Source: SAR202 cluster bacterium bin87
GTDB lineage: Bacteria > Chloroflexota > Dehalococcoidia > Lucifugimonadales > UBA3495
NCBI GenBank assembly: GCA_002238825.1
Contig: MPNC01000021.1
Location: 1 to 38,305, forward strand
Reading direction: 5' to 3'
Length of the DNA stretch: 38,305 bases
The notes under the pieces are model-generated. The model saw only the letters and a program-made list of their open reading frames with translations. It did no database searches and had not been told where the DNA came from. Made by a program: the position numbers and the translations under genes. The number at the start of each line of letters is the position of its first letter. The stretch's first letter is position 1. Shown piece by piece: positions 20,547-38,305 of the stretch.

Positions 20547-20621
20547 CGAAACCTGACATAACGAAAAATCGGCCACACGCTAACACCTGACATGGCACGC
20601 GTCAACGTGAGATTACCCCCA

Positions 20622-20630: not shown

Positions 20631-20662
20631 CCGCCAAACCTGAAAAAGCGAGGACCCGAACG

Positions 20663-21886: not shown

Positions 21887-21938
21887 TCACGGTTGGTTCG
21901 CACAACGCACGGTATGTCACCCACCCAGGAGGAGGCAG

Positions 21939-22355
21939 ATGGGACGCGACAATAACTGGCAGTCGGACATGGTACAATCGGCACTACGACAAGCTGACGA
22001 CGCAATCACGCAGGCGCTCCGGATGGGAACGCCCGAGGATGTCCTCCACGAGATGATCGCAGACCGAGCAATCGCAATCAGCAGCCCTGACGACATCGTT
22101 CGCCTGCTCGACGGAATCGAGCCGGACCCAGAACGCATTTTTGACGGCGATCTCCCCGATGGACTTACCACCATCGCCCAGGCCTGCCGCGAATACCACA
22201 TCCTCAATCAGACCGCGCTCCGCTGGGTCCAGCGCGGAGACATTACATCCCTAGGGCGCAAGCGGGTAAGAGGGGGAGCGACCCACGTCATCCGGGACCG
22301 GGACTTCAAGCACCTGGCAAACAACCTACGGCCTCGCGGCAGACCGCCAAAATAA
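21939..22355 (+). CDS. Helix-turn-helix protein with C-terminal AT-hook-like tail
   Basis: A 138-residue protein behind a strong AGGAGGAGG. The N-terminal half is acidic and helical. From about residue 75, LTTIAQACREYHILNQTALRWVQRGDI looks like a MerR/excisionase-type helix-turn-helix, followed by a wing (GGATHVIRDRDFKHLANN). It ends in RPRGRPPK, an AT-hook core (RGRP) for minor-groove binding. It is the first gene of the accessory block, so an excisionase, transcription regulator or DNA-binding maintenance protein are all possible. No close family is recognised. Confidence 0.65.
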   Translation: MGRDNNWQSDMVQSALRQADDAITQALRMGTPEDVLHEMIADRAIAISSPDDIVRLLDGIEPDPERIFDGDLPDGLTTIAQACREYHILNQTALRWVQRGDITSLGRKRVRGGATHVIRDRDFKHLANNLRPRGRPPK

Positions 22356-22366
22356 AGTTGCCTTGT

Positions 22367-22393
22367 TGACAAAAATGTTATCCTACCTATAAT
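22367..22393 (+). promoter_or_regulatory. Strong promoter of the methyltransferase gene
   Basis: Perfect consensus hexamers TTGACA (22367-22372) and TATAAT (22388-22393) are 15 bases apart, shorter than the ideal 17. Transcription should start near 22400, leaving a leader of only about 23 bases with GGGGGAT before the TTG start codon. Confidence 0.65.
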
Positions 22394-22418
22394 CCCCCGG
22401 GAAACCGACCGGGGGATT
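22391..22418 (+). promoter_or_regulatory. Candidate operator palindrome over the promoter start site
   Basis: A perfect 10-bp inverted repeat, AATCCCCCGG (22391-22400) and CCGGGGGATT (22409-22418), is separated by 8 bases. It covers the last three bases of the -10 and the predicted start site, the usual place for a repressor operator. The methyltransferase's own winged-helix domain or the preceding HTH protein could bind it. As RNA only the right arm would be transcribed, so a DNA role is more likely than a hairpin role. Confidence 0.5.
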
Positions 22419-22422
22419 ACTT

Positions 22423-23514
22423 TTGTCAGCACCTCCATCACCGCAGAGCCTGGAGCCTTGGCTGGACCGCGTCCACCACGGGGACTGCCTGGAGCTCATG
22501 CGTTGCCTCCCCAGCCGCTCCATCGGGCTCATCGTGACGAGCCCGCCCTTCAACCTCTCGCTGAGCACGGGCAACGGCGACCGCATCCGCTACGACTCCT
22601 GGGGCGACGCCATGCCCCACCACGAGTACGTGAAATGGCAGCGGCGCTGCCTCACGGAGATGATGCGCATCCTGCGGCCCGACGGAGCGATTTACTATCA
22701 CCACAAGACACGGGTGCAGTCCGGCGTCGAGCAGGACCGCATCGACATCCTCGAGGGATTCCCGGTGCGGCAGACGATCACCTGGGCCAGGGACGGAGGG
22801 ATCAACCACAACCCCGGCTATTACCTCCCCACGGCCGATTTTGTGTACTTGATCGTCCCCAGCCGCCAGGCCTTCCGGCTCAGCAAGGAGGCCCGAGGCA
22901 TGGGCACGGTCTGGAGGGTCCGTCAGGACACCAGGAACCGCTACCCCGGATCATGGCCCCAGGAAATCCCCGACCGCTGCATCCGCGGCACCGCTGCCGA
23001 AGTGGTCCTTGACCCCTTCATCGGCTCCGGTACCACCGCCCTGGCGGCTCTCCAGGCCGGGCGCCGCTACATCGGCATGGAGATCAGCGAATACGTCTGC
23101 CAGCTGGCCCGGAGACGGATCGCTGCCAGCGCGAAGAGCTCGCGCCAGCGCATCCTGGCCTATCTGGCCACCCGCCAATGCGCAGACCGCCAGGCCATCA
23201 TCGCAGACACCGGGATAGCCCTCCGCACCATCATGTGGCATCTGGGGAAGCTGACCCAGGAAGGCTTGATTGTCGCCACGACCGACCCTCGCGACGGCAG
23301 GAGACGACGATATAGGCTCGACCGCGGTAGCCATTTTGACCAAAAAATAGGTGCAACACCCCCCCCCGAAAGGGGCTGCGTTGCACCTATTTTTGACCCT
23401 GGTAGCGCCCCTGACCCGCGCACCGACACGAGCGCCAGCAGCACGGAGGCCCTGTTTGAGCGCAGCAGCGAGAGAGACGAACCCCCGGGCCCGGGCCCGG
23501 GGAGTAACTCTTAA
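22423..23514 (+). CDS. Beta-class DNA methyltransferase fused to a winged-helix domain
   Basis: A 363-residue reading from TTG 22423. Motif IV TSPPFN (residues 39-44) comes before the AdoMet motif DPFIGSGTT (197-205), the order of beta-class amino-methyltransferases (N4-cytosine or N6-adenine; SPPF slightly favours N4-cytosine). Residues about 240-297 (RQRILAYL...IIADTGIALRTIMWHLGKLTQEGLIV) form a MarR/ArsR-like winged helix ending in a basic RRRRYRL. No restriction enzyme is adjacent, so it looks like an orphan, possibly also regulatory. After about residue 300 the reading runs through a terminator-like hairpin and into the 52-bp repeat (tail EPPGPGPGSNS). The real protein may be shorter, or a frameshift may lie in the run of nine C bases. 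Confidence 0.85.
   Translation: MSAPPSPQSLEPWLDRVHHGDCLELMRCLPSRSIGLIVTSPPFNLSLSTGNGDRIRYDSWGDAMPHHEYVKWQRRCLTEMMRILRPDGAIYYHHKTRVQSGVEQDRIDILEGFPVRQTITWARDGGINHNPGYYLPTADFVYLIVPSRQAFRLSKEARGMGTVWRVRQDTRNRYPGSWPQEIPDRCIRGTAAEVVLDPFIGSGTTALAALQAGRRYIGMEISEYVCQLARRRIAASAKSSRQRILAYLATRQCADRQAIIADTGIALRTIMWHLGKLTQEGLIVATTDPRDGRRRRYRLDRGSHFDQKIGATPPPERGCVAPIFDPGSAPDPRTDTSASSTEALFERSSERDEPPGPGPGSNS
23343..23394 (+). terminator. Large hairpin inside the 3' end of the methyltransferase reading frame
   Basis: A perfect 15-bp inverted repeat (AAAAATAGGTGCAAC at 23343-23357, its complement at 23380-23394) encloses a second stem CCCC-GAAA-GGGG with a GNRA tetraloop. The 3' arm ends in TATTTTTG. It has the shape of a strong, possibly bidirectional terminator, yet lies about 120 bases before the annotated stop. 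Confidence 0.6.
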
Positions 23515-23605
23515 CCAAGTTAATCATAAGGTTCCCCCGGGCCCGGGCCCGGGGAGTAACTCTTAACCAAGTTAATCATAAGGTTCCCCCGGGCCCGGGG
23601 GAACC
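23482..23605 (+). repeat. 52-bp tandem repeat with GC palindromes (2.4 copies)
   Basis: Two identical 52-base units (23482-23533 and 23534-23585) and a partial third. Each unit begins with the self-complementary run CCCCGGGCCCGGGCCCGGGG, then AT-rich DNA with a small inverted repeat TTAACcaaGTTAA. The third, shortened unit completes a perfect 24-base palindrome (23582-23605). The array lies in the gap before the small Cys-rich genes. An origin iteron, partition or recombination site are candidates. Confidence 0.9.
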
Positions 23606-23634
23606 AACGCCAAAGAAACGAATCGGAGGATACC

Positions 23635-24030
23635 GTGACCACAACGCTTAGTCAATCGGCGACAGCCTCTCCGGCAACCTGCCCCTATCACCAGGAGGCC
23701 GCGCTGGTGCGGACCACCAAGTGGCCCAGCGTCACGCGCGCGGCCCGGGCCCACGAGGACCGGGTCTACTACTGCGTCGGAGACTCCGGCGCTTGCGCCT
23801 GGGTGGCATCGGAGCTCCTGGGCGACCTTAACGACCCCGACGCCGCGCGGTTGGAACCGCTGGCGCTCCTCCGGCTCTATCGCGACCGGGTGAACCGGGC
23901 ACAGGAGCCAGCGGAGCGGAACCGGATCATCTCCTCGGGCGGCACGGACGTCACCGACAGCCCCCACCTCGCCGATTACGTCAAACGTTACGGATACCTG
24001 CCCTGGGAACAGGACCAGGAGGCACGATGA
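23635..24030 (+). CDS. Small Cys/His-containing protein of unknown function
   Basis: A 131-residue protein starting at GTG 23635 behind GGAGG. It has CPYH near residue 17 and YYCVGDSGACAW near residue 46; these Cys/His pairs could bind zinc. The rest is helical and charged (LARLEPLALLRLYRDRVNRAQEP). I recognise no family. It opens a chain of short genes that overlap by four bases or less and lead to the ParB-like gene, so it is probably translated from the same message. Confidence 0.65.
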   Translation: MTTTLSQSATASPATCPYHQEAALVRTTKWPSVTRAARAHEDRVYYCVGDSGACAWVASELLGDLNDPDAARLEPLALLRLYRDRVNRAQEPAERNRIISSGGTDVTDSPHLADYVKRYGYLPWEQDQEAR

Positions 24031-24290
24031 GTTACCCGGACGAGATCAACTACCCCCCGTGCGCGAGCTGCGGAGGGGATGTGGTGTACGACATACACAT
24101 GGAGGCCACCGACGGGGAAAGCATCGACCAGGGTTGCACATTGACGATAAAAGCCGTCTGCGGCGACTGCTCCGAGCTCCAAACGCCGACCCCCAGGATG
24201 CGACAGGACATGATGGTCATCGCGGCCAGACTAACGCCCGAGGACGCGGTGGTGGAACCAGCCGGCGCCAGCGAGACACCGACACCATGA
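24027..24290 (+). CDS. Small zinc-ribbon-like protein
   Basis: An 87-residue protein overlapping the previous stop by ATGA. CASCGG near the N-terminus and CGDC about 33 residues later form a likely zinc ribbon. The tail is Pro/Thr-rich. The function is unknown. It belongs to a set of four consecutive short Cys-rich proteins. Confidence 0.65.
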   Translation: MSYPDEINYPPCASCGGDVVYDIHMEATDGESIDQGCTLTIKAVCGDCSELQTPTPRMRQDMMVIAARLTPEDAVVEPAGASETPTP

Positions 24291-24301
24291 GGAGGTACAC
24301 C

Positions 24302-24535
24302 ATGGCACCATGCCCACGCCCCGAATGCGACGGCACGCTGGTGGTGCAAAAAATCTACGGCGGGACCGAGACCACCTGCCGCTCCTGCGGCCGCCACCCG
24401 ACGAGCCCCAAGGTGGAACATCGCGCCGCGCCGGTCCACGTCGCCGATTACACACCGCCCTGGTCCACCGGCCACGGTCGGCCGGTGGCCACCATGGGCA
24501 AGCGGAAGGCCGCCAAGATGCGAGGGAGGACCTGA
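24302..24535 (+). CDS. Small zinc-ribbon-like basic protein
   Basis: A 77-residue protein. ATG 24302 has GGAGG six bases upstream; an in-frame ATG at 24287 would overlap the previous stop by four bases and add five residues. CPRPECDG and CRSCGR make a compact zinc ribbon, and the C-terminus (MGKRKAAKMRGRT) is very basic, suggesting nucleic-acid binding. The function is not known. Confidence 0.6.
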   Translation: MAPCPRPECDGTLVVQKIYGGTETTCRSCGRHPTSPKVEHRAAPVHVADYTPPWSTGHGRPVATMGKRKAAKMRGRT

Positions 24536-24720
24536 TGGCCAAAAAACCACTCGCCCCATGCCCGTCCCGCGCTGACGGCGAACGATGCAACCCTGCCGCC
24601 ATCGGCGTGAATTACAAGGGCACGGTCTGGCGATGCGAGAAGCACTCCATCGCCTACGTGATCGGGCCCAACGGAAAGCTCTTGACCAACGACGCAAAGG
24701 ACGCTCGATATGCCGGATAA
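24535..24720 (+). CDS. Small Cys-containing protein
   Basis: A 61-residue protein whose ATG overlaps the preceding stop (TGATG). It has Cys at CPSRADGERC and a later WRCEKH, again a possible metal site. No family is recognised. The tight overlap on both sides (the next gene starts inside it) is the main evidence that it is translated. Confidence 0.55.
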   Translation: MAKKPLAPCPSRADGERCNPAAIGVNYKGTVWRCEKHSIAYVIGPNGKLLTNDAKDARYAG

Positions 24721-24826
24721 TGCACATGAGGACCTGATCAATTACATCAAAGGCCTGGTCAACGAAGATTGGGTGTCCGAAAAATGGACATCATTGACCA
24801 ACAACGCACAGGAGGTGACCCGATGA
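24710..24826 (+). CDS. Very small protein overlapping the ParB-like gene
   Basis: A 38-residue reading (MPDNAHEDLINYIKGLVNEDW...) starts inside the previous gene and ends with the ATGA that begins the ParB-like gene. It is acidic and likely helical. It is supported only by its place in the overlap chain; without it there would be a 100-base gap in an otherwise gapless run. Confidence 0.45.
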   Translation: MPDNAHEDLINYIKGLVNEDWVSEKWTSLTNNAQEVTR

Positions 24827-26835
24827 CGACGATGACAGTCCGCGAGCGCCAGCAGGTGGACCTCCGCCTGCTGGACGACAACCCCTGGCAGCCGCGCCAG
24901 GACCTGGACCCCGACGCCCTCAGCGAGCTGGCCGGGAGCATCAAACGGCTGGGCCTGATGCAGGCGCCCCTGGCGCGCCCCCACCCGGAGGTTTCCGGCC
25001 GCTACCAGATTGCCTTCGGCCACCGCCGCGTGGCCGCGTTGCGCCTGCTCCGCGCCGAAGTCGCCTGGCCGGATCACGTCGAGATCGACGTGGCCGGGAT
25101 CAGCGACGAGGATATGGCGGTGATGGCGCTGGCCGAGAACGACCGCCGGCGGGACCTGACCGATATTGAGCGGGTCCGCGCCTATCGCCGGGCGGTGGAC
25201 GAGACCGAGCTCACGCCCACGACGCTGGCCGAGCAATTGGACATCCACATCTCCACCCTATCGAATCACCTCCGCACCCTGGAGCTGCCGGCCTCCGTCC
25301 TGGAGCACGTGGAATCGGGCGCCCTCAGCCTGGGCGTGGCCCGGGAATTCCTGGCGCTCCAGGGCCCCGATTGCGTCCACGAAGACGAGATGCAGGACGT
25401 GATCCGGAAGATCGTGAACGTTGAGAACTACAACGACGGAGGGCGCGCGGACTGGCGAAGGCGCAACGTCCGCAAGATGATCAGCGAGACGGTGTCCTTC
25501 GTTGAGAACCGGTCCTTCAGGCCCATCGGGCCCAGGACCGGTCATGAGATCGGCCGCGGCAACGGCGAGCCCACATTCGACGTGGACGCCTTCAGCGCCG
25601 CCCACCCCCATCGGCTGCACACGATACCGGCCGATGACGGCGCATCGGAGAATTACCGGCTGCTCGAACGCTACGAAAAGAGCCGGGTGTGGACCTGCCA
25701 CGTCCGCGAGTGGAGCCGGTGGCAGTCCCGCGACACCAGGGAGCGGAACCGGGCCATCGAGGCGCACGGCGACGGGTCGGGCGGTAGGCCGCCCGAAAAG
25801 AAGGACACCTCCAACGTTCGCCTCCTGGAGCAACTCCTGGGCAAGGACCCGGTGTGGACCCGCATCGCGGCCGCCCGCCCCCAGCCCGGGCCCGACCGCC
25901 CCGTCACCGACGAGGAAAAGGAGCTGCTGGGCACCAGGGCCACCTTCCATCAGGTCGGGTACGACTCCGCCCTCTTTTACAAAATCCTGAACAAGGGCGA
26001 CCGCACCGAGGTCCACAGGTGGGAGGACGATAACGGCGGATTTGTGCCGCCCTTCTTCGACCTGGAGGAATGCCAGGATTGCGTCATCGGCGCCGCCTAC
26101 GGGGGCTCCCAGCACGGTTACCCCATGCACAAGCCCGCCCTGGCCTGTTTCAATCGCGAGCACTACCAGGAGAAACTGGCGGCCGCCAGCGCCGAGTACC
26201 GGGCCAAGCTGGACTCCCAGATCACCGGCGCCGAGCGCCAGGACATGCGGACGGTGCGTGCGCTGGTCCGGACCCTGGACGCCCTGCCCGATGACGCGCG
26301 CCGGGCGCTGGCGCTGGCCATGATCACGGCCCGGGGCATTTTCGAGTGGGAGCACCCCTTCGTGCGCGGCTCCGAATGGAGTTATGAGCCGGGGACGGTG
26401 GCCCGGATCCGCGAGATTCTGGGCGACCGGGTGGCCGGCCGGTGGGACGGCTCGAAGCGCAGCGGCCTGCAGAACAACCGGGCCGCCGCGACCGTCCTGG
26501 ACGATGTGGACCCGCAGGACCTGCGGGAGCTGATCGGGCTGCTGGCCACCTACCACCTCCGCCAGGCCGGCCAGGTCGATCTGGACTTTTCCCGGGAAAA
26601 GTCGCAAGGTGCGTCGGAGCCGGAACCGCCGGCGCCCACCGGGGATGACTCCGGCGCGGAGACCAGGCGCTGCACGGCCTGCAACCGGGACAAGCCCATC
26701 GCGGACTTCGGACGCCAGCTCCGGAAGGGTCCGGACGGCGAATATTACGACGTGCGCTGGATGTGCAAGGCTTGCACCGCCGAACGGCAGAAGCAACGCC
26801 GACAGAACCAGACCCCGATAGGAGCGGCATCATGA
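24823..26835 (+). CDS. Large ParB-like protein with zinc-ribbon C-terminus
   Basis: A 670-residue protein starting at ATG 24823 after an ideal AGGAGGTGA. Residues about 12-110 are the ParB/Sulfiredoxin domain; FGHRRVAALRLL (65-76) is the counterpart of the GERR box that binds CTP in ParB. A helix-turn-helix follows (TLAEQLDIHISTLSNHLRTLELP, about 134-156). The rest, about 500 residues, is unlike chromosomal ParB. It has a Cys/His cluster (C417xxC420, C442) and a terminal zinc ribbon (C617xxC620, C648xxC651). ParB proteins bind palindromic parS sites and spread; the gene contains a parS-like palindrome at 26584. No ParA ATPase is in the window, so silencing, regulation or partition with a host ParA are all open. 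Confidence 0.85.
   Translation: MTTMTVRERQQVDLRLLDDNPWQPRQDLDPDALSELAGSIKRLGLMQAPLARPHPEVSGRYQIAFGHRRVAALRLLRAEVAWPDHVEIDVAGISDEDMAVMALAENDRRRDLTDIERVRAYRRAVDETELTPTTLAEQLDIHISTLSNHLRTLELPASVLEHVESGALSLGVAREFLALQGPDCVHEDEMQDVIRKIVNVENYNDGGRADWRRRNVRKMISETVSFVENRSFRPIGPRTGHEIGRGNGEPTFDVDAFSAAHPHRLHTIPADDGASENYRLLERYEKSRVWTCHVREWSRWQSRDTRERNRAIEAHGDGSGGRPPEKKDTSNVRLLEQLLGKDPVWTRIAAARPQPGPDRPVTDEEKELLGTRATFHQVGYDSALFYKILNKGDRTEVHRWEDDNGGFVPPFFDLEECQDCVIGAAYGGSQHGYPMHKPALACFNREHYQEKLAAASAEYRAKLDSQITGAERQDMRTVRALVRTLDALPDDARRALALAMITARGIFEWEHPFVRGSEWSYEPGTVARIREILGDRVAGRWDGSKRSGLQNNRAAATVLDDVDPQDLRELIGLLATYHLRQAGQVDLDFSREKSQGASEPEPPAPTGDDSGAETRRCTACNRDKPIADFGRQLRKGPDGEYYDVRWMCKACTAERQKQRRQNQTPIGAAS
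26584..26603. promoter_or_regulatory. parS-like palindrome, copy 1 (inside the ParB-like gene)
   Basis: The perfect 20-base palindrome GACTTTTCCCGGGAAAAGTC. Its centre TTTCCCGGGAAA matches the chromosomal parS core TTTCACGTGAAA at 10 of 12 positions, the differences being symmetric. An identical copy lies at 31653-31672. A parS inside or next to its own parB gene is common. Confidence 0.55.
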
Positions 26836-27050
26836 CGACACCAGCCCCAGAACCCACCGGCGAAACCCACCTGGCCCGCCTGCAGGAGATGATCGAGGTC
26901 CAGGAGTCGCTACCCTGGGAGGACAGCGACGTGGACCGCCACGACCGCAGCATGAGCCTGGGCCTGCTCCACGGGTTGGCGGGTCTCCAGATGATATTGG
27001 GCGAACTCTGCGACGCGCTGGTTGCCCTGGACCCCGACGAGGAGGAGTGA
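26832..27050 (+). CDS. Small acidic protein
   Basis: A 72-residue acidic protein (MTTPAPEPTGETHLARLQEMIEVQ...DPDEEE) whose ATG overlaps the ParB-like stop by four bases. It looks all-helical. No family is recognised. The tail ends in EEE and supplies the GGAGG ribosome site of the next gene. Confidence 0.6.
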   Translation: MTTPAPEPTGETHLARLQEMIEVQESLPWEDSDVDRHDRSMSLGLLHGLAGLQMILGELCDALVALDPDEEE

Positions 27051-27289
27051 TGTTCGTCGGACCCGAGACCAGAGCCCTCCACACCCCCGAAGGCAGCTGG
27101 GAGAGGATCGATCCGGAGGCCTTCTCGGTCCAGGGATGCGGCCACATGGCCGACCCGCACCTCGGCGCCTACCGCTGGATGCGCCAGACCCGTCGACGGA
27201 CCAGGACCCTGGCCTCCGTGATCTGCGCGGCCTGCATGGATCTGGAGCTGCAGCGCCAGGCCGTGGCCGCCCGTAACCTTGGAGATTGA
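27050..27289 (+). CDS. Small protein with possible zinc site
   Basis: A 79-residue protein starting at ATG 27050 (overlapping TGATG). It contains CGH and, about 30 residues later, CAAC, which may form a zinc-binding site, with a basic stretch RQTRRRTR between. The function is unknown. Confidence 0.55.
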   Translation: MFVGPETRALHTPEGSWERIDPEAFSVQGCGHMADPHLGAYRWMRQTRRRTRTLASVICAACMDLELQRQAVAARNLGD

Positions 27290-27291
27290 TC

Positions 27292-27666
27292 ATGCAATAC
27301 ACAGTGCACGTCTTCTGCGGGGAGTTTGACCTTTTTTGCATCGAGCTGAACGATATGGTGATTGTGAATTGGGCTGAGTTGATGACCTCGGACAACCGCC
27401 ACCACGTACCGACCTGCGAGGCTATGCCCTTCATAGTCCCAGCGTGGCAGCACGCGATACTCTCATGGAGATCAGGGCCGAATGGTTGGGCGCCGCCGCC
27501 TGACGAAGACGATTTCCAAGCCATTCACGATGCGCTGTGCTCCCATACCGGCGCTCTACACGTTATCGAAACGCGGTACTGGCCGCCGTTTATAGGAGAC
27601 CCTAACTTGCCGCACCCTACGCGAGTCACAAAGGAGCCAGAAGCCCACACAGTGGATGGAAAATGA
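27292..27666 (+). CDS. Hypothetical protein of lower GC content
   Basis: A 124-residue protein from ATG 27292, seven bases after GGAG. It is rich in Trp, His and aromatic residues (VNWAELM, PAWQHAILSWRSG, RYWPPFIGDP). No family is recognised. Its GC content and codon use are visibly lower than those of its neighbours, suggesting a separate origin within the element. Confidence 0.55.
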   Translation: MQYTVHVFCGEFDLFCIELNDMVIVNWAELMTSDNRHHVPTCEAMPFIVPAWQHAILSWRSGPNGWAPPPDEDDFQAIHDALCSHTGALHVIETRYWPPFIGDPNLPHPTRVTKEPEAHTVDGK

Positions 27667-28166
27667 CCATGACGACATATCGCAAATTGATCACGGGAAT
27701 AGCGGCGGTGGCGCTGCTGGCGGCGTTTGCCGCGACGGTGACGCATCCGGCAAGCGGTGACGGATTGACCCGTATCGCGCAGCAGGTGGACCACCGGTCA
27801 TCAGGCGCCACCGGATCGGGGCAGACCAGGGTGCTGGCGCTCTACGAATTCGGGGATGACATGGAGAGCCGCGAGGGCATGTTGCAGGCGTGGCTGGACG
27901 CGGTTCGCTCCAACGGGACGGCGCTGGCGATGCATGGCCAGAGCGAGGCGGACCGGAACCAGGCCATCGAAAATCTGGTGGTGTTCGCCGACGGGTTCGG
28001 CCAGCTGGCGGACCACTACCGGGAGGCGGACCCGCAGCGCAGCGCCGAAATGGACCGCATTGCGCGGTCTCTGGACAGCCAGGCGATGGCGGCTAAACAG
28101 CGGTGGGGATTGAGCGGCACGGGGACGGGTGTAGCCGGCTCCGCGGGATACTTCGGACGTGAGTGA
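27663..28166 (+). CDS. Secreted small protein with signal peptide
   Basis: A 167-residue protein overlapping the previous stop by four bases. Its N-terminus has a basic YRK followed by LITGIAAVALLAAFAATVTHPASG, a typical Sec signal peptide cleaved near residue 30. The mature part is helical, acidic and Gln-rich and has no Cys. It is the first exported protein of the element and may be a structural or periplasmic component; the family is not recognised. Confidence 0.6.
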   Translation: MTMTTYRKLITGIAAVALLAAFAATVTHPASGDGLTRIAQQVDHRSSGATGSGQTRVLALYEFGDDMESREGMLQAWLDAVRSNGTALAMHGQSEADRNQAIENLVVFADGFGQLADHYREADPQRSAEMDRIARSLDSQAMAAKQRWGLSGTGTGVAGSAGYFGRE

Positions 28167-28212
28167 GCCCGACCCTGCCTACCAACTCGAAGCACACCAT
28201 GAGGAGTCAACC

Positions 28213-28872: not shown

Positions 28873-28879
28873 CCCCGTG

Positions 28880-28908
28880 TTGACGCGGCTCGTCGACTGG
28901 CTTATGTT
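28880..28908 (+). promoter_or_regulatory. Promoter of the spike-like gene
   Basis: TTGACG (28880-28885) and TATGTT (28903-28908) are 17 bases apart. Transcription would begin near 28915, almost at the ATG (28918), so the message may be leaderless or use the next ATG at 28933. A similar unit (TGGACT, 17 bases, TATGTT followed by GC) lies at 32112-32140. Confidence 0.55.
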
Positions 28909-28917
28909 GCCGCTGGC

Positions 28918-31626: not shown

Positions 31627-31655
31627 TGTGAGCTCCGACTAGTGTGAGCCCCGAC
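31624..31655 (+). repeat. 16-bp direct repeat pair beside the second parS-like site
   Basis: TAGTGTGAGCTCCGAC (31624-31639) and TAGTGTGAGCCCCGAC (31640-31655) are adjacent and differ at one base. The first contains the stop codon of the spike-like gene and the second runs into the palindrome at 31653. Confidence 0.8.
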
Positions 31656-31672
31656 TTTTCCCGGGAAAAGTC
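31653..31672. promoter_or_regulatory. parS-like palindrome, copy 2 (intergenic)
   Basis: This is identical over 20 bases to the palindrome at 26584-26603. It lies between the spike-like gene and the next membrane-protein gene, directly after the 16-bp direct repeats. The two copies are 5 kb apart on the element. Confidence 0.55.
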
Positions 31673-31699
31673 CACCGCGCACCCCGATAAGGACCCGCC

Positions 31700-32107
31700 A
31701 TGTTTGCCATCGTGATCTCCGGAGGCGCCCTGGTCTTCTGGCTCTTCGCCCACGCCATCATGGGGATGGCCTACTCCGGCTGGGGCCCCATCTTTGGCAT
31801 TGAGTCGCCCACCTGCGAGCACGTGCCCCAGGCCATCTGCGCCCACGACACGCCGTGGGCCCACCTCCGGGGCGGTGAGCAGACCTATGATCCGGAGTCG
31901 GGCAACCTGATGGTGCTGACCCAGGCCACCAGCGAGGGCCGCAACGTGTTTGTGACGGTGTGGAAGTTTCTGAGCATGGACTACCCCCTCCTGGACAACC
32001 AGATCGGGGCCATCGTGCGGGTGGGCGCGCTGCTGGCGGTCTTCGGGGCCATCGCCCAGCTGGTCTACCTGGTCATACGCATCGTCGGCGCCAGCCGCTG
32101 GCTCTGA
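31700..32107 (+). CDS. Small membrane protein with two helices
   Basis: A 135-residue protein, ATG 31700 with AAGGA upstream. Helix one is at residues about 3-24 (FAIVISGGALVFWLFAHAIMGMAY) and helix two at about 103-127 (IGAIVRVGALLAVFGAIAQLVYLVI). Between them is a loop of about 75 residues with a Cys pair (CEHVPQAIC) that could form a disulfide outside the cell. No family is recognised. It sits between the spike-like gene and the next promoter. Confidence 0.65.
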   Translation: MFAIVISGGALVFWLFAHAIMGMAYSGWGPIFGIESPTCEHVPQAICAHDTPWAHLRGGEQTYDPESGNLMVLTQATSEGRNVFVTVWKFLSMDYPLLDNQIGAIVRVGALLAVFGAIAQLVYLVIRIVGASRWL

Positions 32108-32111
32108 CCGC

Positions 32112-32140
32112 TGGACTTGCCCGCCGCCCTCGGCTATGTT
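32112..32140 (+). promoter_or_regulatory. Candidate promoter upstream of the second membrane-protein block
   Basis: TGGACT (32112-32117), a 17-base spacer and TATGTT (32135-32140), followed by GC as at 28903. The -35 match is modest. It would give a leader of about 150 bases for the gene at 32295. Confidence 0.4.
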
Positions 32141-32145
32141 GCGTC

Positions 32146-32208
32146 GCGCGAGGGATACCGGGCCAGGAGGCGTGAATCCCCGGGGTGTGTGTGTGCAGGC
32201 CCTCGCGC
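32146..32208 (+). promoter_or_regulatory. Long-range stem in a leader region
   Basis: GCGCGAGGG (32146-32154) can pair with CCCTCGCGC (32200-32208), a 9-bp stem beginning at the predicted transcription start. It encloses AGGAGG and a CCCCGGGG palindrome. No U-tract follows, so it is not a simple terminator. The remaining leader to 32294 is A/C-rich and holds no gene. Confidence 0.4.
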
Positions 32209-32294
32209 ACATACTATTAACGTACAACTAACCCCTTCAAAGACGAAAAACCCCCCAGCCCCCAGCCGCCGACCGACCAGGAACCAGGAACCCG

Positions 32295-32846
32295 ATGCCT
32301 TCCCTGATCAGACCCGCCCAGCGCGACGACTCCGAGAGGTCGGAGGGGAACAACCTCCTGATCGCGGTGGACAACTCCGGCGACATCATCCGCGACGTTT
32401 CCATCAAGCCGCGGTTCGGGATGTTGTTCTCCCCGAAGAACGACTGGCTCCTCGAGATGCGCGAAGCCCTGATGCGGTGGACCTATAAGAACCCCGAGCA
32501 CGGGCCGCGCCCCGACGGCCGCGCGTACTTCGCCCCCCAGGAGGAGCGCAGCCCCGCCGACATACCGTGGTTCATGGGCAGGTACCTGGACCTGGTGCGC
32601 CTGGACGCCCAGGCCGGACGGATCACCCAGCGCCTCAAGCAGCGGGTCAAGCAGGACTTCGCCTGGATCATCGGCATCGGAGCCGCCTCGCTGATTGCCT
32701 TCTCCACTTTGGTGGTCGCCCCCTACTGCGCGCCCAGTGCCGACATCACGATCCAGCAGGTGGTCCAGCCCACGCCGGATCCGCGGGCGCCGACGCCGGC
32801 CATTGTGCCCTCGCCGGTGCCGGCCCAGCCGCCGGAGACGCCATGA
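32295..32846 (+). CDS. Single-pass membrane protein with Pro-rich tail
   Basis: A 183-residue protein, AGGA five bases before the ATG. About 120 soluble residues are followed by one helix (IIGIGAASLIAFSTLVVAPYC, about 125-145) and a Pro/Thr-rich tail (PTPDPRAPTPAIVPSPVPAQPP). The basic KQRVKQ before the helix predicts that the N-terminus is cytoplasmic and the tail outside. No family is recognised. Its stop overlaps the next ATG. Confidence 0.65.
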   Translation: MPSLIRPAQRDDSERSEGNNLLIAVDNSGDIIRDVSIKPRFGMLFSPKNDWLLEMREALMRWTYKNPEHGPRPDGRAYFAPQEERSPADIPWFMGRYLDLVRLDAQAGRITQRLKQRVKQDFAWIIGIGAASLIAFSTLVVAPYCAPSADITIQQVVQPTPDPRAPTPAIVPSPVPAQPPETP

Positions 32847-33961
32847 CGACCGCCCCCGCCAACCTTCAGTCCAACCGGAAGCGGCCGCCGTGGATCAACT
32901 GGCGGCTCTTCACGCCGGCCGGGGTGGGCCTGGGCCTGGTCTATTTCGGGTACATCCTGCAGGTGAAGGGCGTGGCGGAGGACCTCGTCGCCCAGGGCGT
33001 GGTCATGTGGGCCGTGATGGGCGCCCTGCTGGGATACGTCGGCTATTGGGTGGCGGTCCTGGCCCACGTGGTGGTCGAGGCCCAGCGCAACCGGGTCAAG
33101 GTGGAATTCGAGACCACCGACGAGCTCGAGGCCTGGGCCAAGGAGCAGCCCCTCCTGCCGAAGTACTTCGGGCTCTCCCTCCACTGCGGCGTGGCGCAGC
33201 CGCACATCTGCCACGCCATGTACGACCAGCTGGCGCGCCTCGAGGAGATCGTGGTCCAGGGACCGACCATAGCGATGTTCCTGATGAGCGTGGCCGGAAT
33301 CGCCTGCGGCGTGGGCGCCGGTTTCTGGGCCTACTCCAGCCCCCTGGAGCCGCACTGGGCGGTGATCCCGATCCTGGCCATCGTGTGCGCACCGGTGGGG
33401 TTCGGGTTCGGATGGACCACGGCGGCCTCGATGAAATACGCCCGGGCCTGGTGCTATACCCTGGTGCTGATCTATGGCCACGGGTACAGCGAGCGCCCGA
33501 CGGACATCATCGAGACCCTGACCCCGCAGGTGGTCTGGGCCAACCGGCCCTGGTACTTCCAGGGCTCGGCCATCGAGGGCATGAAGGGCCGGTGGGTCCT
33601 CCTGCGTACGGACCAGGTGCAGTCCGAGGCCCTGGTGGACTACACCATGCGCAACATCTACGAGCTCGAGGCGGCGTCCATCTCCGACCTGATGAGCGGC
33701 CTGCAGTCGTATGACGACCAGCCGCCGCGCGGTTGGACCGGCTCCAACGCCCGCGAAATGCGCCTGATGGACAAGAAGGCGCAGCGCAAGGGCGAGCTCG
33801 AGGGAGTCCGCCAGCGCAAGGTGGGCGGCCAGACCGCCCGGGCCGTTTCCTACACCATGATCATTGTGGCCATGCTCGGCGCCAGCATGTGCAGCTCCAT
33901 GAACGGTTTCGAGAAGCCCACCGAGATCGTGGACCAGAACATCGGGCGCATCCTGGACTGA
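32843..33961 (+). CDS. Polytopic membrane protein of unknown family
   Basis: A 372-residue protein starting in the ATGA overlap at 32843. Five helices are predicted: about 23-40, 52-77 and 143-163 (with GIACGVGAG), then 172-194 and 334-350. A basic, charged cytoplasmic-type segment (residues about 295-330, KKAQRKGELEGVRQRK) precedes the last helix. It is the most hydrophobic component of the block. A role as an assembly platform or virion membrane protein is possible, but nothing in the sequence identifies it. Confidence 0.65.
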   Translation: MTTAPANLQSNRKRPPWINWRLFTPAGVGLGLVYFGYILQVKGVAEDLVAQGVVMWAVMGALLGYVGYWVAVLAHVVVEAQRNRVKVEFETTDELEAWAKEQPLLPKYFGLSLHCGVAQPHICHAMYDQLARLEEIVVQGPTIAMFLMSVAGIACGVGAGFWAYSSPLEPHWAVIPILAIVCAPVGFGFGWTTAASMKYARAWCYTLVLIYGHGYSERPTDIIETLTPQVVWANRPWYFQGSAIEGMKGRWVLLRTDQVQSEALVDYTMRNIYELEAASISDLMSGLQSYDDQPPRGWTGSNAREMRLMDKKAQRKGELEGVRQRKVGGQTARAVSYTMIIVAMLGASMCSSMNGFEKPTEIVDQNIGRILD

Positions 33962-33965
33962 CGCG

Positions 33966-34160
33966 ATGCGGGACCGACTGACGCAGGCCGTGCGGGACGG
34001 CACGTCATGGACGCAGCTCCGGATCTCCGCGGTGGCCTGGGCCTGCGCGCACCTGGTGATCAGCGCCTACCCCTACCCGTGGGGCCTCGCCGGCGTGGCG
34101 GTGTACATCAGCGTCTTCTTCGCTCTCGAATACGCCGACCGAACAACGAACCGTAGGTGA
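33966..34160 (+). CDS. Small membrane protein
   Basis: A 64-residue protein five bases after the previous gene. Most of it is hydrophobic: two short helices (about 19-35 and 39-54) between a charged start (MRDRLTQAVRDG) and end (EYADRTTNRR). Its size and position between larger membrane proteins recall minor coat proteins of filamentous phages, which is only an analogy. Confidence 0.6.
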   Translation: MRDRLTQAVRDGTSWTQLRISAVAWACAHLVISAYPYPWGLAGVAVYISVFFALEYADRTTNRR

Positions 34161-34165
34161 CCGCC

Positions 34166-34978
34166 ATGACGTCGCAGACTTTCTCAGAACAGGACGCCTG
34201 GTATCAGGAGATGCCCGGCCAGCAGGAGCGGGGCAGCCACGCCGAGTGGTACGGCATGCTCTACGCCTTCACCTCAATGGTGATGGACATCCCCACCGGC
34301 GCCGCCGTCCGGACCAACCTGACCGACGACGAAAAGGAGGAGGCGGAGATCTGCATGAGCCTGGGAATGAAGCAGTACCGCGCGCGCTGTTTCAACTCCG
34401 GCCTGGAGATCGGCCGCCGCCGCCAGGAACAGAAGCTGCTCCAGGAGGCGATGAAGGAGTGGGAGGAGCTGGATGACGACGGCGAGCACAAGGCATTCAT
34501 CCCGCCGACCATCTTCGAACTGGATTCGGACCAGAAGCAGTACGCCACGGTCTTCGCCGGCATGGGCTGCATCACCTCGGACGAGGAGTATGACAAGGCC
34601 CAGGCGCGCTATAACCGCCTCTCCGAGCAGTGCCAGCGCATCCAGGAGCAGGACGAGCTGGCCAAGCAGATGGATTGCTACTTTGACTTCAGCCTGCTCC
34701 GGCAGACCTATCACCAGCCCGACCGCGAACGCCAATTCAACGGCCTGAAGTACGACGAGGCGCCCTCATTCCTGCAGGAGCTCTACAACCTGGTCATCAT
34801 CACCTTCTCCGGCCAGCAGCAGGAGCACGAAACCGAGCTGGTGATCCGCCAGCAGCCCATGCGCCGGATGCTGCCCCCGGGAGAGGTCGTCGACGAACCG
34901 GTGACGCGGCGCCGGCCGCGCGGCGGCAAGAAGGGCGCCGAGAGCGAGGTCTACGGCGGCGACACCTACGAATTCTAG
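34166..34978 (+). CDS. Soluble helical protein of unknown function
   Basis: A 270-residue protein. ATG 34166 follows AGGTGA by five bases; a GTG at 34157 overlaps the previous stop. It is acidic, rich in Gln and Glu, and strongly helical with coiled-coil-like stretches (NRLSEQCQRIQEQDELAKQM). The C-terminus is basic (RRRPRGGKKG) and ends with a short acidic tail. It has no membrane segment. It may be a cytoplasmic partner of the ATPase encoded two genes later. Confidence 0.6.
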   Translation: MTSQTFSEQDAWYQEMPGQQERGSHAEWYGMLYAFTSMVMDIPTGAAVRTNLTDDEKEEAEICMSLGMKQYRARCFNSGLEIGRRRQEQKLLQEAMKEWEELDDDGEHKAFIPPTIFELDSDQKQYATVFAGMGCITSDEEYDKAQARYNRLSEQCQRIQEQDELAKQMDCYFDFSLLRQTYHQPDRERQFNGLKYDEAPSFLQELYNLVIITFSGQQQEHETELVIRQQPMRRMLPPGEVVDEPVTRRRPRGGKKGAESEVYGGDTYEF

Positions 34979-34996
34979 CCAGGAGGATAGCCACCG

Positions 34997-35710
34997 ATGG
35001 CCACCCAAGCAGACGACCCCCAGCCGGAGGCCACCGGCGACGATAAGGCGACCGGCCTGGCCGCGAGCCTGAAGGCGATCCCGCCCTCGCGCCTCCTGTT
35101 CTACGGCGCGATTGTGGCGGCCGGCCTCCTGGTGTCCATGGGCCTCTGCGCACTGCCCGGGCAGGCCCAGAAGTTCCAGCCCCCGCCGCCGGTGACCCAG
35201 GTGGTCGTGACCGAGGTGGCGCCGACCACCACCGTTCTGCCCACGTGGACGCCGGTCCCCACCGCGACCCCGCCCCCGCTGGTCGACCTCCCCCTGCAGC
35301 AGCGCGCCTACCAGGAGTACCGCATCTATCACCTGCTCTACGAATACCGAGCGTGCTACCGGCACCACACCCAGCCTCCGCCCACGCCGGTCCCCACGCC
35401 CACCGCCGGTCCGACGCCCGAATACACGGGACACAACCCCCAGGAGCCGTGGCGGGACGATCCGCGCTTTGCCCACCTGGAGCCGACCCCCCACCCCACC
35501 CCGACGCCGATCCCGGGCGCCCTGGTCCAGCACCTCCCGCCGCCCTACGGCCTCAGCGACCGGGAGGTGGACGATCACGCCCTGGGAGATTTGAGCGGCG
35601 CCACCCGCTGGCTGATCGAGCGCTACTCCCGGGGCGACTGCGTGGAGTCGACCCATTACGCCGCCTTCGAAGGCCGGACCGTGTTCTTGAGCAAATACGC
35701 CACCCGGTAG
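34997..35710 (+). CDS. Single-pass membrane protein with TP-rich linkers
   Basis: A 237-residue protein with AGGAGG upstream. After 30 soluble residues one helix (LLFYGAIVAAGLLVSMGLCAL, about 33-53) leads to an outside region with Thr/Pro linkers (PTWTPVPTATPPP, PPPTPVPTPTAGPTP, EPTPHPTPTPIPG) spacing a small folded end. Such TP linkers are frequent in Chloroflexota surface proteins and match those in the 902-residue protein, tying both to the same host surface. Confidence 0.65.
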   Translation: MATQADDPQPEATGDDKATGLAASLKAIPPSRLLFYGAIVAAGLLVSMGLCALPGQAQKFQPPPPVTQVVVTEVAPTTTVLPTWTPVPTATPPPLVDLPLQQRAYQEYRIYHLLYEYRACYRHHTQPPPTPVPTPTAGPTPEYTGHNPQEPWRDDPRFAHLEPTPHPTPTPIPGALVQHLPPPYGLSDREVDDHALGDLSGATRWLIERYSRGDCVESTHYAAFEGRTVFLSKYATR

Positions 35711-35719
35711 GAGCCGCCC

Positions 35720-36994
35720 ATGGTCAAGATGAAACGGGTGATGCCGACAGTGCTCGACGAGATGGAGCAGTTCGCCGAGGACCGCATCGCCCTGGAGTAC
35801 CGGCGCAAGATACTCCTCGAGGACAACTACCTGTACGAGCTGAACAAGGAGGCCGCGCTGGAGCAGCCCCTGGGCCACGATATGACGTTCGTGGCCGGAC
35901 GCGTCGGGGTGGGCAAGACCACCGACGCCATCATGCGGGCGCGGCTCGCGTTTCGCGCCGGCTACATGGTCTATCACAACGGGATCGGCTGCCTCTTCGG
36001 GATGGAGGTGCCCGACCTGGGCATCTACGCGTTCTCGCACTCCATCCGCCGGCGCGCGCATATCGTCATCGACGAGGCCCACAACTTCTGCCCAAGCCGC
36101 CGCTCCAACACCATCCGGAGCCAGACGTTTCTCAACGGGCTCAGCGGCCGCAGGAAAAACGATCACCGGTTGGACTTAATGAGCTCCCAGCCCCGCCAGA
36201 TGGACTTTTCCGTCATGGAGCAGGTGATGTGGGCCAGGGTCCCCGAGGAGCTGAGCAAGTGGGCCAGGAAGAAAAGCGCCTACGGCGAATGGTGCTATCG
36301 GAAGATCAACGTCCTGGGACCCTACCCCTGGCGGGACAAGAATATGTTCGAACAGTGGGGCATCTCGTACTACGAGCGCGACGTGGAACACCGGGAGTTC
36401 ACGGCCCTGCCCAGCCAGTGGTACGACGCCGCGGCCGCCGTCAACTCGTGGGCGAACATCAAGAAGCTCGCCGGCAAGGGCGTGGGCTCCGAGCAGATGT
36501 GGGAATACCTGGACAGCGCCGACACCGACGAGGAGCTGATCGTCGACGAATACGGCAACGAGGTGGTGGGGATGGCCGAGGACGGGACCTTCATCGTGCG
36601 GGGTCCGGAGGGACAGCAGTCGTCGGCACGGACCGCCGAAGAACGCGCGGCCCAGGATGCCCAGGTCGAATACGAGAACACCATCCTGACCTATATCCTG
36701 ATGGCATTCCGGCCGGTCATCGACGAAACCGGCGTCGAGCGCCCGCCTGCCCTGAACCCCGACCCGCAGGAAAAGATACCGGTGGCCAAGATCGCCCGGG
36801 TGATCCGCGACCACGGCGCCCCCGCCTGCACCGAGAGCCGCCTGCGCAAGATGCTGACCTCCTACGACGTGCGGGTCAGGGGCCGCGATGAGACCGTGAT
36901 CGTGGAGGACATCGCCCGGGTCTACGCCGCCTATGGCGCCTGGCCCTACCCCTTCGGCGACTACACTCCCCGTCCCCCACGCCCTCCAGGGTGA
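35720..36994 (+). CDS. Zot/FtsK-HerA-like P-loop ATPase
   Basis: A 424-residue ATPase. Walker A is GRVGVGKT (residues 60-67) and Walker B HIVIDEAH (114-121). A later strand LDLMSSQPRQMD (151-162) carries the conserved Gln (157) of FtsK-HerA-type motors. The order, with SGRRKNDHRLDLMSSQ, parallels Zot/gene I proteins (RHxGxDIxLITQ), which drive assembly and export of filamentous phages, and also virion-packaging ATPases. Unlike classic Zot it has no membrane helix; instead a long C-terminal part ends in a winged-helix-like region (about 360-412) and a Pro-rich tail. It is the last gene before a strong terminator. A conjugative coupling protein is less likely, as no relaxase is seen. Confidence 0.75.
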   Translation: MVKMKRVMPTVLDEMEQFAEDRIALEYRRKILLEDNYLYELNKEAALEQPLGHDMTFVAGRVGVGKTTDAIMRARLAFRAGYMVYHNGIGCLFGMEVPDLGIYAFSHSIRRRAHIVIDEAHNFCPSRRSNTIRSQTFLNGLSGRRKNDHRLDLMSSQPRQMDFSVMEQVMWARVPEELSKWARKKSAYGEWCYRKINVLGPYPWRDKNMFEQWGISYYERDVEHREFTALPSQWYDAAAAVNSWANIKKLAGKGVGSEQMWEYLDSADTDEELIVDEYGNEVVGMAEDGTFIVRGPEGQQSSARTAEERAAQDAQVEYENTILTYILMAFRPVIDETGVERPPALNPDPQEKIPVAKIARVIRDHGAPACTESRLRKMLTSYDVRVRGRDETVIVEDIARVYAAYGAWPYPFGDYTPRPPRPPG

Positions 36995-37116
36995 TCCGGA
37001 CCGGAATCGGCCAAAAACCGGCCGCAAATAAGCCACGGAGAGGCCCGAAAGTCGAGCCGACCGACCCGCAGGCCCTTTTACGCCTGAAATCGCAGCAGCC
37101 CCGCCCCTGACAATCC
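36995..37116. other. Untranslated gap after the ATPase gene
   Basis: No gene is seen. A small inverted repeat CGGCC-AAAAAC-CGGCCG lies near 37008-37024. The strong terminator follows immediately. Confidence 0.5.
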
Positions 37117-37156
37117 AGCGGCCGCCTCCTGAACCAGGGAGGCGGCCGCTTTTTGT
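37117..37156 (+). terminator. Strong rho-independent terminator
   Basis: A GC-rich stem of about 15 bp (37117-37131 with 37135-37150, one bulged C) is followed by TTTTTG. It ends the transcript that covers the membrane proteins and the ATPase and separates it from the repeated membrane-protein genes. Confidence 0.85.
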
Positions 37157-37277
37157 GGTGATGGCGGTGATGGGCGTGATGGAATCGTTGACTGCATAGA
37201 CCCTCCGCGCAAGTGTGGCGGAAAGGCGCTTGGAGCAGCGCCGATCAACTCACGCACGACCCGCAAGGAGGCGACCC

Positions 37278-38108
37278 ATGAAATACGGACTGGCCCTGGC
37301 GTTCGGGGCCATATCGCTCATCATCAGCATCGCGCTGTCGGACACGGTGACCGACGGCGCCCAGGACCTGGACGTGGAGTTCAGGAACGCCGGCGTCGTC
37401 GACGGCCAGCGGTTCGACAAGGTGTGGACCAAGGCCAAGACCGACGGCGACGGCCGCAACCAGGACCGAGGGAAGCCAGTGAAGGTGGAAGCGGTCGGAG
37501 ACAACGTCTGCGCCACGGTCGCCGAAACGACGCTCTACCTTTTCGACGGCACGCAGGTCACGGCCGAACGCGACCAGAAACCGTCCAGCGGCGCCGACGT
37601 GAACAACTGCGGCACACTGCCGGCGTCGGCAGGCTTTGGGACGAAAGCCCAGATAACCAACGCCACCTGGTCGAAGGCGAGCCCGCTGGCCAACGAGATC
37701 GGCGGGATATTGACGCTGCTCACGTCGGTCCTGCCCATCGTGATCCTGGGCGGCCTGGTCATCATGGCCACCACGACGGCATTCAGCCAAGCCAACATGG
37801 GAGCGGGATCATTGGGCAAGCAGCTCCTCGTCGAGTTGGGCTATATCGTCGGGGTTTTGATCATCATGCGCATGGCGCCCTCGATCACCCAGGAGGCGAC
37901 CGACCTCTACTGGACGTTCTCCAGCGGCGCGACCATTTTCAACATCTTTGGCGGGTTCCTGGGCATCCTGATCGCGCTGATACCGGTGGGCATCATCGGG
38001 TTAATTTTCGGGATCGTGGCCGAGCGCAGCATCAAAAACGTCAGTGGCCAGAGTGGCATCGGCTACGCCTACAAGAAGGTCCGCGGCAGCATGAGCGGCG
38101 GCATGTAG
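37278..38108 (+). CDS. Four-helix membrane protein, first copy of a repeated gene
   Basis: A 276-residue protein; ATG 37278 follows AAGGAGG by six bases. The N-terminus MKYGLALAFGAISLIISIAL is a signal or anchor. Residues about 22-140 form an ectodomain with two cysteines (C78, C111). Three helices follow (about 143-168, 186-204, 224-248), and a basic, Gly-rich C-terminal end. It has its own transcript after the terminator and its start is repeated 914 bases later, as expected for an abundant structural component; this is an inference. A TTGACT at 37188 may be its -35, with a poor -10. Confidence 0.7.
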   Translation: MKYGLALAFGAISLIISIALSDTVTDGAQDLDVEFRNAGVVDGQRFDKVWTKAKTDGDGRNQDRGKPVKVEAVGDNVCATVAETTLYLFDGTQVTAERDQKPSSGADVNNCGTLPASAGFGTKAQITNATWSKASPLANEIGGILTLLTSVLPIVILGGLVIMATTTAFSQANMGAGSLGKQLLVELGYIVGVLIIMRMAPSITQEATDLYWTFSSGATIFNIFGGFLGILIALIPVGIIGLIFGIVAERSIKNVSGQSGIGYAYKKVRGSMSGGM

Positions 38109-38178
38109 CCAGCCCGCACCGCTTTGTTTGAGGGAGGCGCCGCGCTCCAGGCGCCTCCCCTAGACCAGCCCCATCGCA

Positions 38179-38305
38179 AAGGAGGCGACCCATGAAATAC
38201 GGACTGGCCCTGGCGTTCGGGGCCATATCGCTCATCATCAGCATCGCGCTGTCGGACACGGTGACCGACGGCGCCCAGGACCTGGACGTGGAGTTCAGGA
38301 ACGCC
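38179..38305 (+). repeat. 127-bp exact repeat of 37265-37391 reaching the window end
   Basis: From AAGGAGGCGACCC through the first 38 codons, these 127 bases are identical to 37265-37391, and the identity begins exactly at 38179. The preceding bases differ. The offset is 914 bases. Confidence 0.9.
38192..38305 (+). CDS. Second copy of the four-helix membrane protein gene, truncated by the window end
   Basis: The ATG at 38192 and 38 codons are present, identical to the start of the gene at 37278, with the same AAGGAGG site. The gene leaves the window, so it cannot be said whether it stays identical or diverges. See the note on the 127-bp repeat: it could be a true tandem gene or an assembly loop. 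Confidence 0.55.
   Translation, partial: MKYGLALAFGAISLIISIALSDTVTDGAQDLDVEFRNA

Follow-up and report, generated by a model that had tools for sequence, protein, structure and literature searches.

The 38,305-base contig MPNC01000021.1 of SAR202 cluster bacterium bin87 (Chloroflexota; assembly GCA_002238825.1) ends in a block of co-oriented genes, from position 21,939 onward, and the question it raises is whether this block belongs to a virus, to another kind of mobile element, or to the chromosome itself. A preliminary description, made from the letters of the DNA, had proposed an undescribed virus-like element. The window, as used below, is the entire contig (C10), one of 67 in a 4.96-Mb assembly (genome G000). 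We find that its genes are real and that it is a mobile element rather than a part of the fixed core chromosome. We consider it probable, with considerable room for doubt, that the block forms the left-hand 16.4 kb of a Xer-using integrative mobile element (IMEX), which would be at least 27.7 kb long and equipped with a virus-like export module; for this module, a virus-like particle is moderately favoured over a conjugation apparatus.

The gene block begins inside a dif-like site that is uninterrupted in relatives

The first 21,886 positions of the window look like ordinary chromosome, and the caiB-like gene with which they end is carried by all 14 genomes of the genus. Foreign DNA starts at about 21,917, within a dif-like site; DNA homology to relatives is gone by this position at the latest, inside the motif GGTTCGCACAA-n6-KTATGT. 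The boundary thus differs from the 21,939 of the preliminary description, and the element continues beyond the window. The motif has one copy in each of six relatives and two in G000, one in the window and one on contig C28, and no others were found in the genome.

21895–21917, + strand: attL, dif-like site GGTTCGCACAA-CGCACG-GTATGT; relatives are homologous no further than this
C28:11280–11302: attR, the second copy of the dif-like motif
C28:1–11,279 (locus L041): right-hand assembled part of the element, up to attR

The two sites have a common 17-nt left part, GGTTCGCACAACGCACG, and unlike XerD-side arms (GTATGTCACCC vs TTATGTAGATA). At attL, the XerC-side arm and the centre are as in the nearest relatives and the XerD-side arm is altered. 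The site stands uninterrupted behind caiB in 13 of the 13 other genomes of the genus, and downstream of it they show homology to the chromosome after C28:11,302, starting at the site itself in L011, L012, L014 and L015 and some hundred bases later in the rest. Because relatives have a whole site and G000 two copies, we assign the window site as attL and the C28 site as attR, with the chromosome resuming after attR. Fixed core chromosome in relatives, which the preliminary description had named as the counter-case to its proposal, is not what these 13 genomes show.

With at most one mismatch, the dif-like motif is present in 14/14 genus genomes and in 78 of 197 relatives, and it is single in 69 of those 78; a reversed-motif control matched 4 of the 197. 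Its centre is often AT-rich in other families (e.g., GGTTCGCACTATATATGTTATGT). The motif resembles what we take to be the E. coli dif site, and motif and uniqueness together suggest that the site is dif. Predicted dif sites have been reported for three of three single-chromosome Chloroflexi genomes (PMC3025954). The XerD-side arm recurs in inverted form (ACATAAC) about 40 nt past the dif-like site in seven relatives (L011, L012, L013, L014, L015, L017, and L020) and in G000 attR (L041:11280 on). Another member of the genus carries a second dif-like site with one mismatch (L137, G001:C42, 2376-2398), near open reading frames (ORFs) that look transposase-like by eye; it may be another insertion or chance.

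The assembled element comprises 16,388 bases on C10 and 11,279 on C28. Both contigs terminate inside it; they have no overlap, and the end 127-mers of either are absent from all other contigs, so a stretch of unassembled sequence lies between them. GC content is 0.671 (C10) and 0.663 (C28) in the element parts versus 0.624 and 0.614 in the flanks. The window ends in an exact 127-nt repeat (37265-37391 and 38179-38305), probably an assembler k-mer overlap; a circular contig, considered on the strength of this repeat, was dropped because the repeated stretch is internal and not the contig start. No free circular form, which the preliminary description had proposed to look for, was found, and an Rfam scan of 20000-38305 gave no match.

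An ATPase and a membrane protein recur in an element of another genus

We scanned 25 element proteins with Pfam, 25 with PHROGs and 7 with NCBIfam, leaving out a few small ORFs; statements on scanned proteins have this scope. All called genes from 21,939 onward lie on the + strand of the window. Of 20 gene junctions, for which one gene start was adjusted manually, 8 overlap by 4 nt and two others by 8 nt and 1 nt. The long ORFs on the minus strand, such as one of 512 aa at 25258-26796, overlie ParB and other + genes and were judged spurious. The features of the candidate export module are:

28918–31626, + strand: 902-aa anchored surface protein with an FN3 domain (fn3, 1.2e-13)
35720–36994, + strand: P-loop ATPase, loosely Zot-like, 424 aa (phrog_197, 1e-7)
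37117–37150, + strand: terminator-like hairpin of 14 pairs with a T run, lying between the ATPase and membrane-protein genes
37278–38108, + strand: 276-aa polytopic membrane protein with an N-terminal segment, a long loop and C-terminal helices
38179–38305, + strand: start of a second membrane-protein gene copy, truncated where the contig stops (its 127 nt are identical to 37265-37391)

The 902-aa protein has hydrophobic segments at residues 19-37 and 825-889, and a minor tail protein family (phrog_6977, 1.3e-9) covers its FN3 part; we regard it as a candidate spike or adhesin. The ATPase has no hydrophobic segment, scores 17.1 bits against Pfam Zot (cut-off 20.3) and has no NCBIfam match at E<=0.1. 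The 276-aa protein is a candidate for the major particle or pilus protein. It had been described as a duplicated four-helix protein: the protein is there, but our scan gives five hydrophobic segments in it and four in its homolog in genome G028, and only 127 bases are repeated at the contig end, the rest of the second copy being unassembled. Structure models of the 276-aa protein and the ATPase, which the preliminary description had suggested making, were unusable (predicted local distance difference test scores of 37.4 and 32.4), and we base no claim on either. PDB sequence searches gave no convincing relative.

G028, from another genus of the same family, contains a related element. Its first gene lies directly after tRNA-Val and is a homolog of the first gene of the window part (29% over 137 aa, 8e-9); its membrane protein is at 720,698 (31% over 96 aa, 1.2e-7) and its ATPase at 750,625 (24%, 2.5e-13). 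When 24 window and C28 proteins, the giant protein described below being left out, were scored against the ORFs of G028, these three gave z = 24, 20 and 28, respectively; the 273-aa protein (z=6.3, a possible but weak counterpart) and two C28 ORFs were weak (z 6-7), and the rest were about noise. Of 147 genomes searched for the ATPase and 395 searched for the membrane protein, two had a match in either case, namely G000 and G028, and an ATPase profile run against 400 genomes from the whole phylum (the genomes listed do not include G028) matched G000 only. The search for the same block in other genomes and viromes, suggested beforehand, thus yielded the pair in G028 and no confirmed match in IMG/VR, where the scans used miss distant relatives. 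No second att copy of the G028 element was found up to 816 kb.

The G000 ATPase ranks fourth among the phrog_197 matches listed, and the best others belong to different small elements. L077-L081, from other families of the same order, are separate small elements of this kind; their phrog_197-matching ATPases are 37-67% identical to each other, and some stand beside ParB-like genes, others beside serine recombinases.

Both elements encode giant proteins. On C28 this is the end of a gene for at least 2151 aa, with PGEVP repeats and a NUDIX domain (5e-20), the only domain that Pfam recognised in its 2151 residues. Five phage records matched it by tblastn, via the NUDIX domain only, and an IMG/VR scan, seeded by exact or near-exact 8-residue peptides and therefore insensitive, gave no confirmed match. 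The G028 element has a 2104-aa giant (L007:44-6355), which had no tblastn match in phages, and a DarB-like giant of 2551 aa (L007:6380-14032; phrog_10089, 1396 bits). These two differ in build and have a common 86-residue basic C-terminal tail (44%, 9e-15), possibly a sorting or packaging signal. The G028 element further encodes a 1476-aa cadherin-repeat surface protein with C-terminal hydrophobic segments, a topoisomerase-family protein (phrog_6247, 1.6e-101) and, just before the ATPase, a protein that looks cyclophilin-like by eye (this pair at L076:9881-10813 and L007:13857-14621).

A third, partial element comes from the same genus as G000 (L138, G011:C79; identical to GenBank VXTR01000013.1, Chloroflexi bacterium SB0666_bin_1). 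The end of its giant is homologous to the G000 giant (31% over 64 aa, 1.8e-7), and through it the G000 and G028 giants can be linked at 0.004 at best. A TnpB/OrfB-like gene, recognised by eye, lies on the same strand as the end of this giant (L138:491-1729).

The element carries a ParB-family protein and a repeated palindrome

24823–26835, + strand: ParB-family partition protein (TIGR00180 parB_part, 112.8 bits, cut-off 58.45; Pfam ParB_N and HTH_ParB)
26584–26603: palindrome GACTTTTCCCGGGAAAAGTC, copy 1, inside the ParB gene
31653–31672: palindrome GACTTTTCCCGGGAAAAGTC, copy 2

The N-terminal and helix-turn-helix (HTH) domains of ParB are recognised at curated score, and its C-terminus is weakly HNH/endonuclease VII-like (phrog_2255 HNH, 4e-4 at residues 629-680). 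Matches to it were found in 261 plasmid records, in no case across 80% of its length, and the ten listed all align in the N-terminal part. ParA was not recognised among the proteins scanned.

A third exact copy of the 20-bp palindrome is at C28 7966, and L138 has a copy with the last base changed. None occurred in 100 shuffles of the window, and its 14-bp core has no copy in 1.23 Mb of other loci (overlaps included). An 18-mer scan of the genome collection returned 8 records versus about 4 estimated by chance, and only the G011 contig among them has element-protein matches; the single IMG/VR match to the palindrome (GC 0.415) had no matching element ORF and was rejected. We consider the palindrome a candidate parS, that is, a putative partition site for ParB. 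It is unlike what we take to be the canonical parS, which is absent from the window and from L041.

Close to the third copy, at C28:7933, lies a second dif-like site, inverted, with another centre and 3 mismatches (shuffles of L041 gave a mean of 0.01 matches). L138 has an inverted dif-like site with a single mismatch at the equivalent position, surrounded by conserved DNA. This internal site may serve in multimer resolution.

Other genes of the element

The remaining features of the window part are:

21939–22355, + strand: HTH protein encoded by the first gene past attL, resembling an excisionase in position and domain; homolog in G028
22366–22393, + strand: promoter-like site with 12/12 consensus matches (4 such sites in the region vs 1.4 expected)
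22423–23514, + strand: orphan DNA methyltransferase (N6/N4) with winged HTH (PF01555, N6_N4_Mtase, 7e-32; phrog_67, 1.5e-46)
23482–23605, + strand: 52-bp direct repeat, two exact copies and a part copy, with GC palindromes
23635–24720, + strand: four small ORFs of 131, 87, 82 and 61 aa, three with Cys pairs
26832–28872, + strand: five small genes of 72, 80, 126, 167 (signal-like segment) and 237 aa
31700–32107, + strand: 135-aa protein with two hydrophobic segments
32295–33961, + strand: membrane proteins of 183 and 372 aa (hydrophobic-segment scan)
33966–35710, + strand: proteins of 64, 273 and 237 aa, the last with one hydrophobic segment

Pfam HTH_17 is passed by the G028 homolog of the first gene and not by the window protein itself. 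The sigma-70 consensus promoter before the methyltransferase gene is directly followed by an 11-pair terminator-like hairpin (22366-22419), and the region holds 19 terminator-like sites versus 7.2 expected. The 52-bp repeat is a candidate origin. The 131- and 87-aa ORFs had no Pfam match, the 82- and 61-aa ORFs were left out of the scan, and for the five small genes at 26832-28872 neither Pfam nor PHROGs gave a match at E<=0.1. An alignment of the 135-aa protein with small proteins of L138 (126 aa) and G028 is possible, with no significant score and no BLAST match at the limits used. The 273-aa protein had no tblastn match in phages.

The C28 part includes one 290-aa gene on the opposite strand, a small ORF that matches a phage family of unknown function (phrog_8020, 1.6e-13), and a D12-class methyltransferase that adjoins attR (1.5e-15). 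A 76-aa C28 ORF, left out of the profile scans, has two hydrophobic segments, and the 64-aa window protein has none at threshold; no scanned protein matched a short inovirus-type major coat protein profile. These results bear out the gene inventory of the preliminary description, namely one-strand genes with ATGA overlaps, a ParB-like protein, an orphan methyltransferase, a 902-residue anchored FN3 protein and tiny Cys-rich proteins, as well as its remark that no tailed-phage gene or relaxase is recognised, which holds among the proteins scanned.

Discussion

We propose that the element would enter chromosomal dif by means of host XerC/XerD and leave it likewise, existing outside the chromosome as a circular plasmid-like replicon. 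No integrase was recognised among the scanned element proteins, a negative limited by the unassembled gap. ParB acting on the 20-bp palindrome would partition the replicon, and multimers would be resolved at the internal dif-like site. For export, we propose a membrane-based machine in which the polytopic membrane protein would be the main particle or pilus subunit and the ATPase the motor for DNA or assembly, together with the anchored spike-like protein; the giant protein would travel with the DNA, on the model of polyvalent or Dar proteins. A particle enclosed by a membrane would fit such a set, with its anchored spike-like protein, its polytopic protein encoded in a separate unit after a strong terminator-like hairpin, and its soluble ATPase. 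A conjugation-like apparatus could be built from these parts as well, and we therefore take the viral step with moderate confidence. Of the virus-like element first described, the mobile character stands, given the uninterrupted site in 13/13 relatives and the recurrence of the ATPase and membrane protein in G028; its viral nature is not established.

The alternative that survives best is a non-viral transfer element, resembling an integrative and conjugative element (ICE), an actinomycete ICE (AICE) or a secretion island such as the 57-kb gonococcal genetic island (GGI), in which the membrane proteins and ATPase would work in conjugation or secretion. In its favour, the GGI is an IMEX that has a type IV secretion system (PMC5357621); conjugative elements and phages alike carry polyvalent giants (PMC5512222); and ParB and a multimer-resolution-like site are plasmid traits. 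However, no relaxase, VirB4, VirD4 or coupling protein was found among the scanned element proteins, the gap being unassembled, and the sole ATPase seen is the loosely Zot-like one of 424 aa. We judge this alternative possible but doubtful.

An ordinary tailed prophage with its head and packaging genes in the gap is unlikely. The minor-tail family over the FN3 part of the 902-aa protein would fit it, as would the DarB-like giant in G028, P1 DarB being a virion head component (PMC5512222). However, FN3 is a common domain and a membrane-anchored C-terminus seems ill-suited to a tail fibre. Moreover, no convincing score for a terminase, portal, tape measure or major capsid protein was obtained among the G000 proteins and the 18 G028 proteins scanned, a scan in which not every protein was covered by both libraries and which ends at the C10-C28 gap. 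Terminase and head-morphogenesis PHROGs against the ATPase (0.24-0.41) and tail families against the 1476-aa G028 protein (0.011-0.019) were counted as noise.

That the block is a fixed genomic island or a binning chimera is very unlikely: G000 is fragmented, with 4.83% contamination, and C10 and C28 both end in the element, but the two contigs join it to opposite flanks of a single site, which is whole in 13/13 relatives, and a false junction on a 17-nt common core is improbable with a 127-mer assembler. Least probable of all is a large true inovirus (filamentous phage), since the Zot-like ATPase by PHROG and the integration at a dif-like site as in CTXphi-type phages, the latter a new point in favour of the filamentous-phage likeness first suggested, are set against a size of at least 27.7 kb (already noted as larger than filamentous phages; inovirus genomes have a limit of about 15 kb), an ATPase with no membrane segment, no recognised inovirus replication initiator, and a main membrane protein of 276 aa that is no short coat protein.

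Several results weigh against the IMEX reading and its virus-like export module. Neither a capsid or particle nor a virome contig or free circular form was found. By tblastn, neither the ATPase nor the membrane protein matched anything in phages or plasmids, nor did their G028 homologs in phages, and IMG/VR scans for both gave no confirmed match, although scans seeded by a few exact or near-exact short peptides miss distant relatives. The Zot label is soft, with Pfam below its cut-off: phrog_197 also matches 43/395 relatives and 5/14 control genomes at E<=0.001, and the homologous G028 ATPase matches neither Zot family, so we call the ATPase only loosely Zot-like. The G028 element lacks the palindrome, and no ParB was seen among its scanned proteins; in G000, binding of ParB to the palindrome and recombination driven by XerC/XerD are predictions. 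GC skew sampled in 20 stretches of G010 was not polarised, which neither supports nor excludes a terminus position, and a dnaA motif scan of 14 stretches at contig ends and antipodes found no dnaA-like gene or DnaA-box cluster. Finally, the gap could hold a terminase, relaxase or integrase.

A more far-reaching version of the IMEX reading is tentative, and we consider it possible rather than probable: a dif-integrating, tailless, membrane-based Chloroflexota virus family of phage-plasmids with ParB and the palindrome, which would exit by ATPase, membrane protein and spike and inject giant polyvalent proteins. Such a family would be known from three elements, those of G000, G011 (a fragment) and G028 (beside a tRNA gene and DarB-carrying). 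The Xer route is known mainly from small filamentous phages that borrow XerC/XerD, together with a few islands such as the GGI; if confirmed, a gene set as large as this one and of this composition, at a dif-like site in an uncultured Chloroflexota clade, would widen the range of what uses it. It would also open a way into the viruses or transfer elements of a phylum that is little described, with the ATPase-membrane protein pair, present in two otherwise different elements, as a searchable hallmark and the palindrome as a directly testable ParB site. Phrase searches for Chloroflexi, SAR202 or Dehalococcoidia phages or viruses returned scarcely any literature, though they may miss other wording, and the limited set of abstract beginnings searched held no description of such an element.

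Comparison with known systems

The ATPase shares a P-loop core with the Zot/pI ATPase of inoviruses by phrog_197 and differs from it in having no membrane segment and a Pfam Zot score below cut-off, phrog_197 itself being unspecific. Polyvalent proteins are giants that unite several effector or enzyme domains. Their delivery with DNA has been proposed (PMC5512222). Giants occur here too, and in G028 one is DarB-like and shares its C-terminal tail with the other; in the G000 giant, NUDIX is the one domain recognised, and a methyltransferase-helicase pair is not. ParB-parS systems are alike in a curated-level ParB and a repeated exact palindrome, and unlike in that no ParA is among the scanned proteins and the palindrome differs from what we take to be canonical parS.

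Vibriophage NO16 is smaller than the element, and phages of its type have a double-jelly-roll capsid protein, for which the scanned proteins gave no profile match. NO16/Asemoviridae are non-tailed temperate phages with dif-like sites, and Xer integration has been suggested for them (PMC9966536). They set a precedent for a non-tailed virus at dif and share the suggested Xer route; they differ in that neither the ATPase nor the membrane protein has a match in 50,697 phage records and no capsid is recognised here.

A close likeness is to IMEX of the TLCphi/GGI type. The host, a member of the Chloroflexota, is different, and no inovirus genome or type IV secretion system is recognised in the cargo. 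The att sites of TLCphi and the GGI match on the XerC side and in the centre and diverge on the XerD side, as described in PMC5357621. The element has the same arrangement by its sequence: insertion at a dif-like site and two flanking dif-like copies, with the XerC arm and centre matching and a divergent XerD arm, one arm apparently coming from the element.

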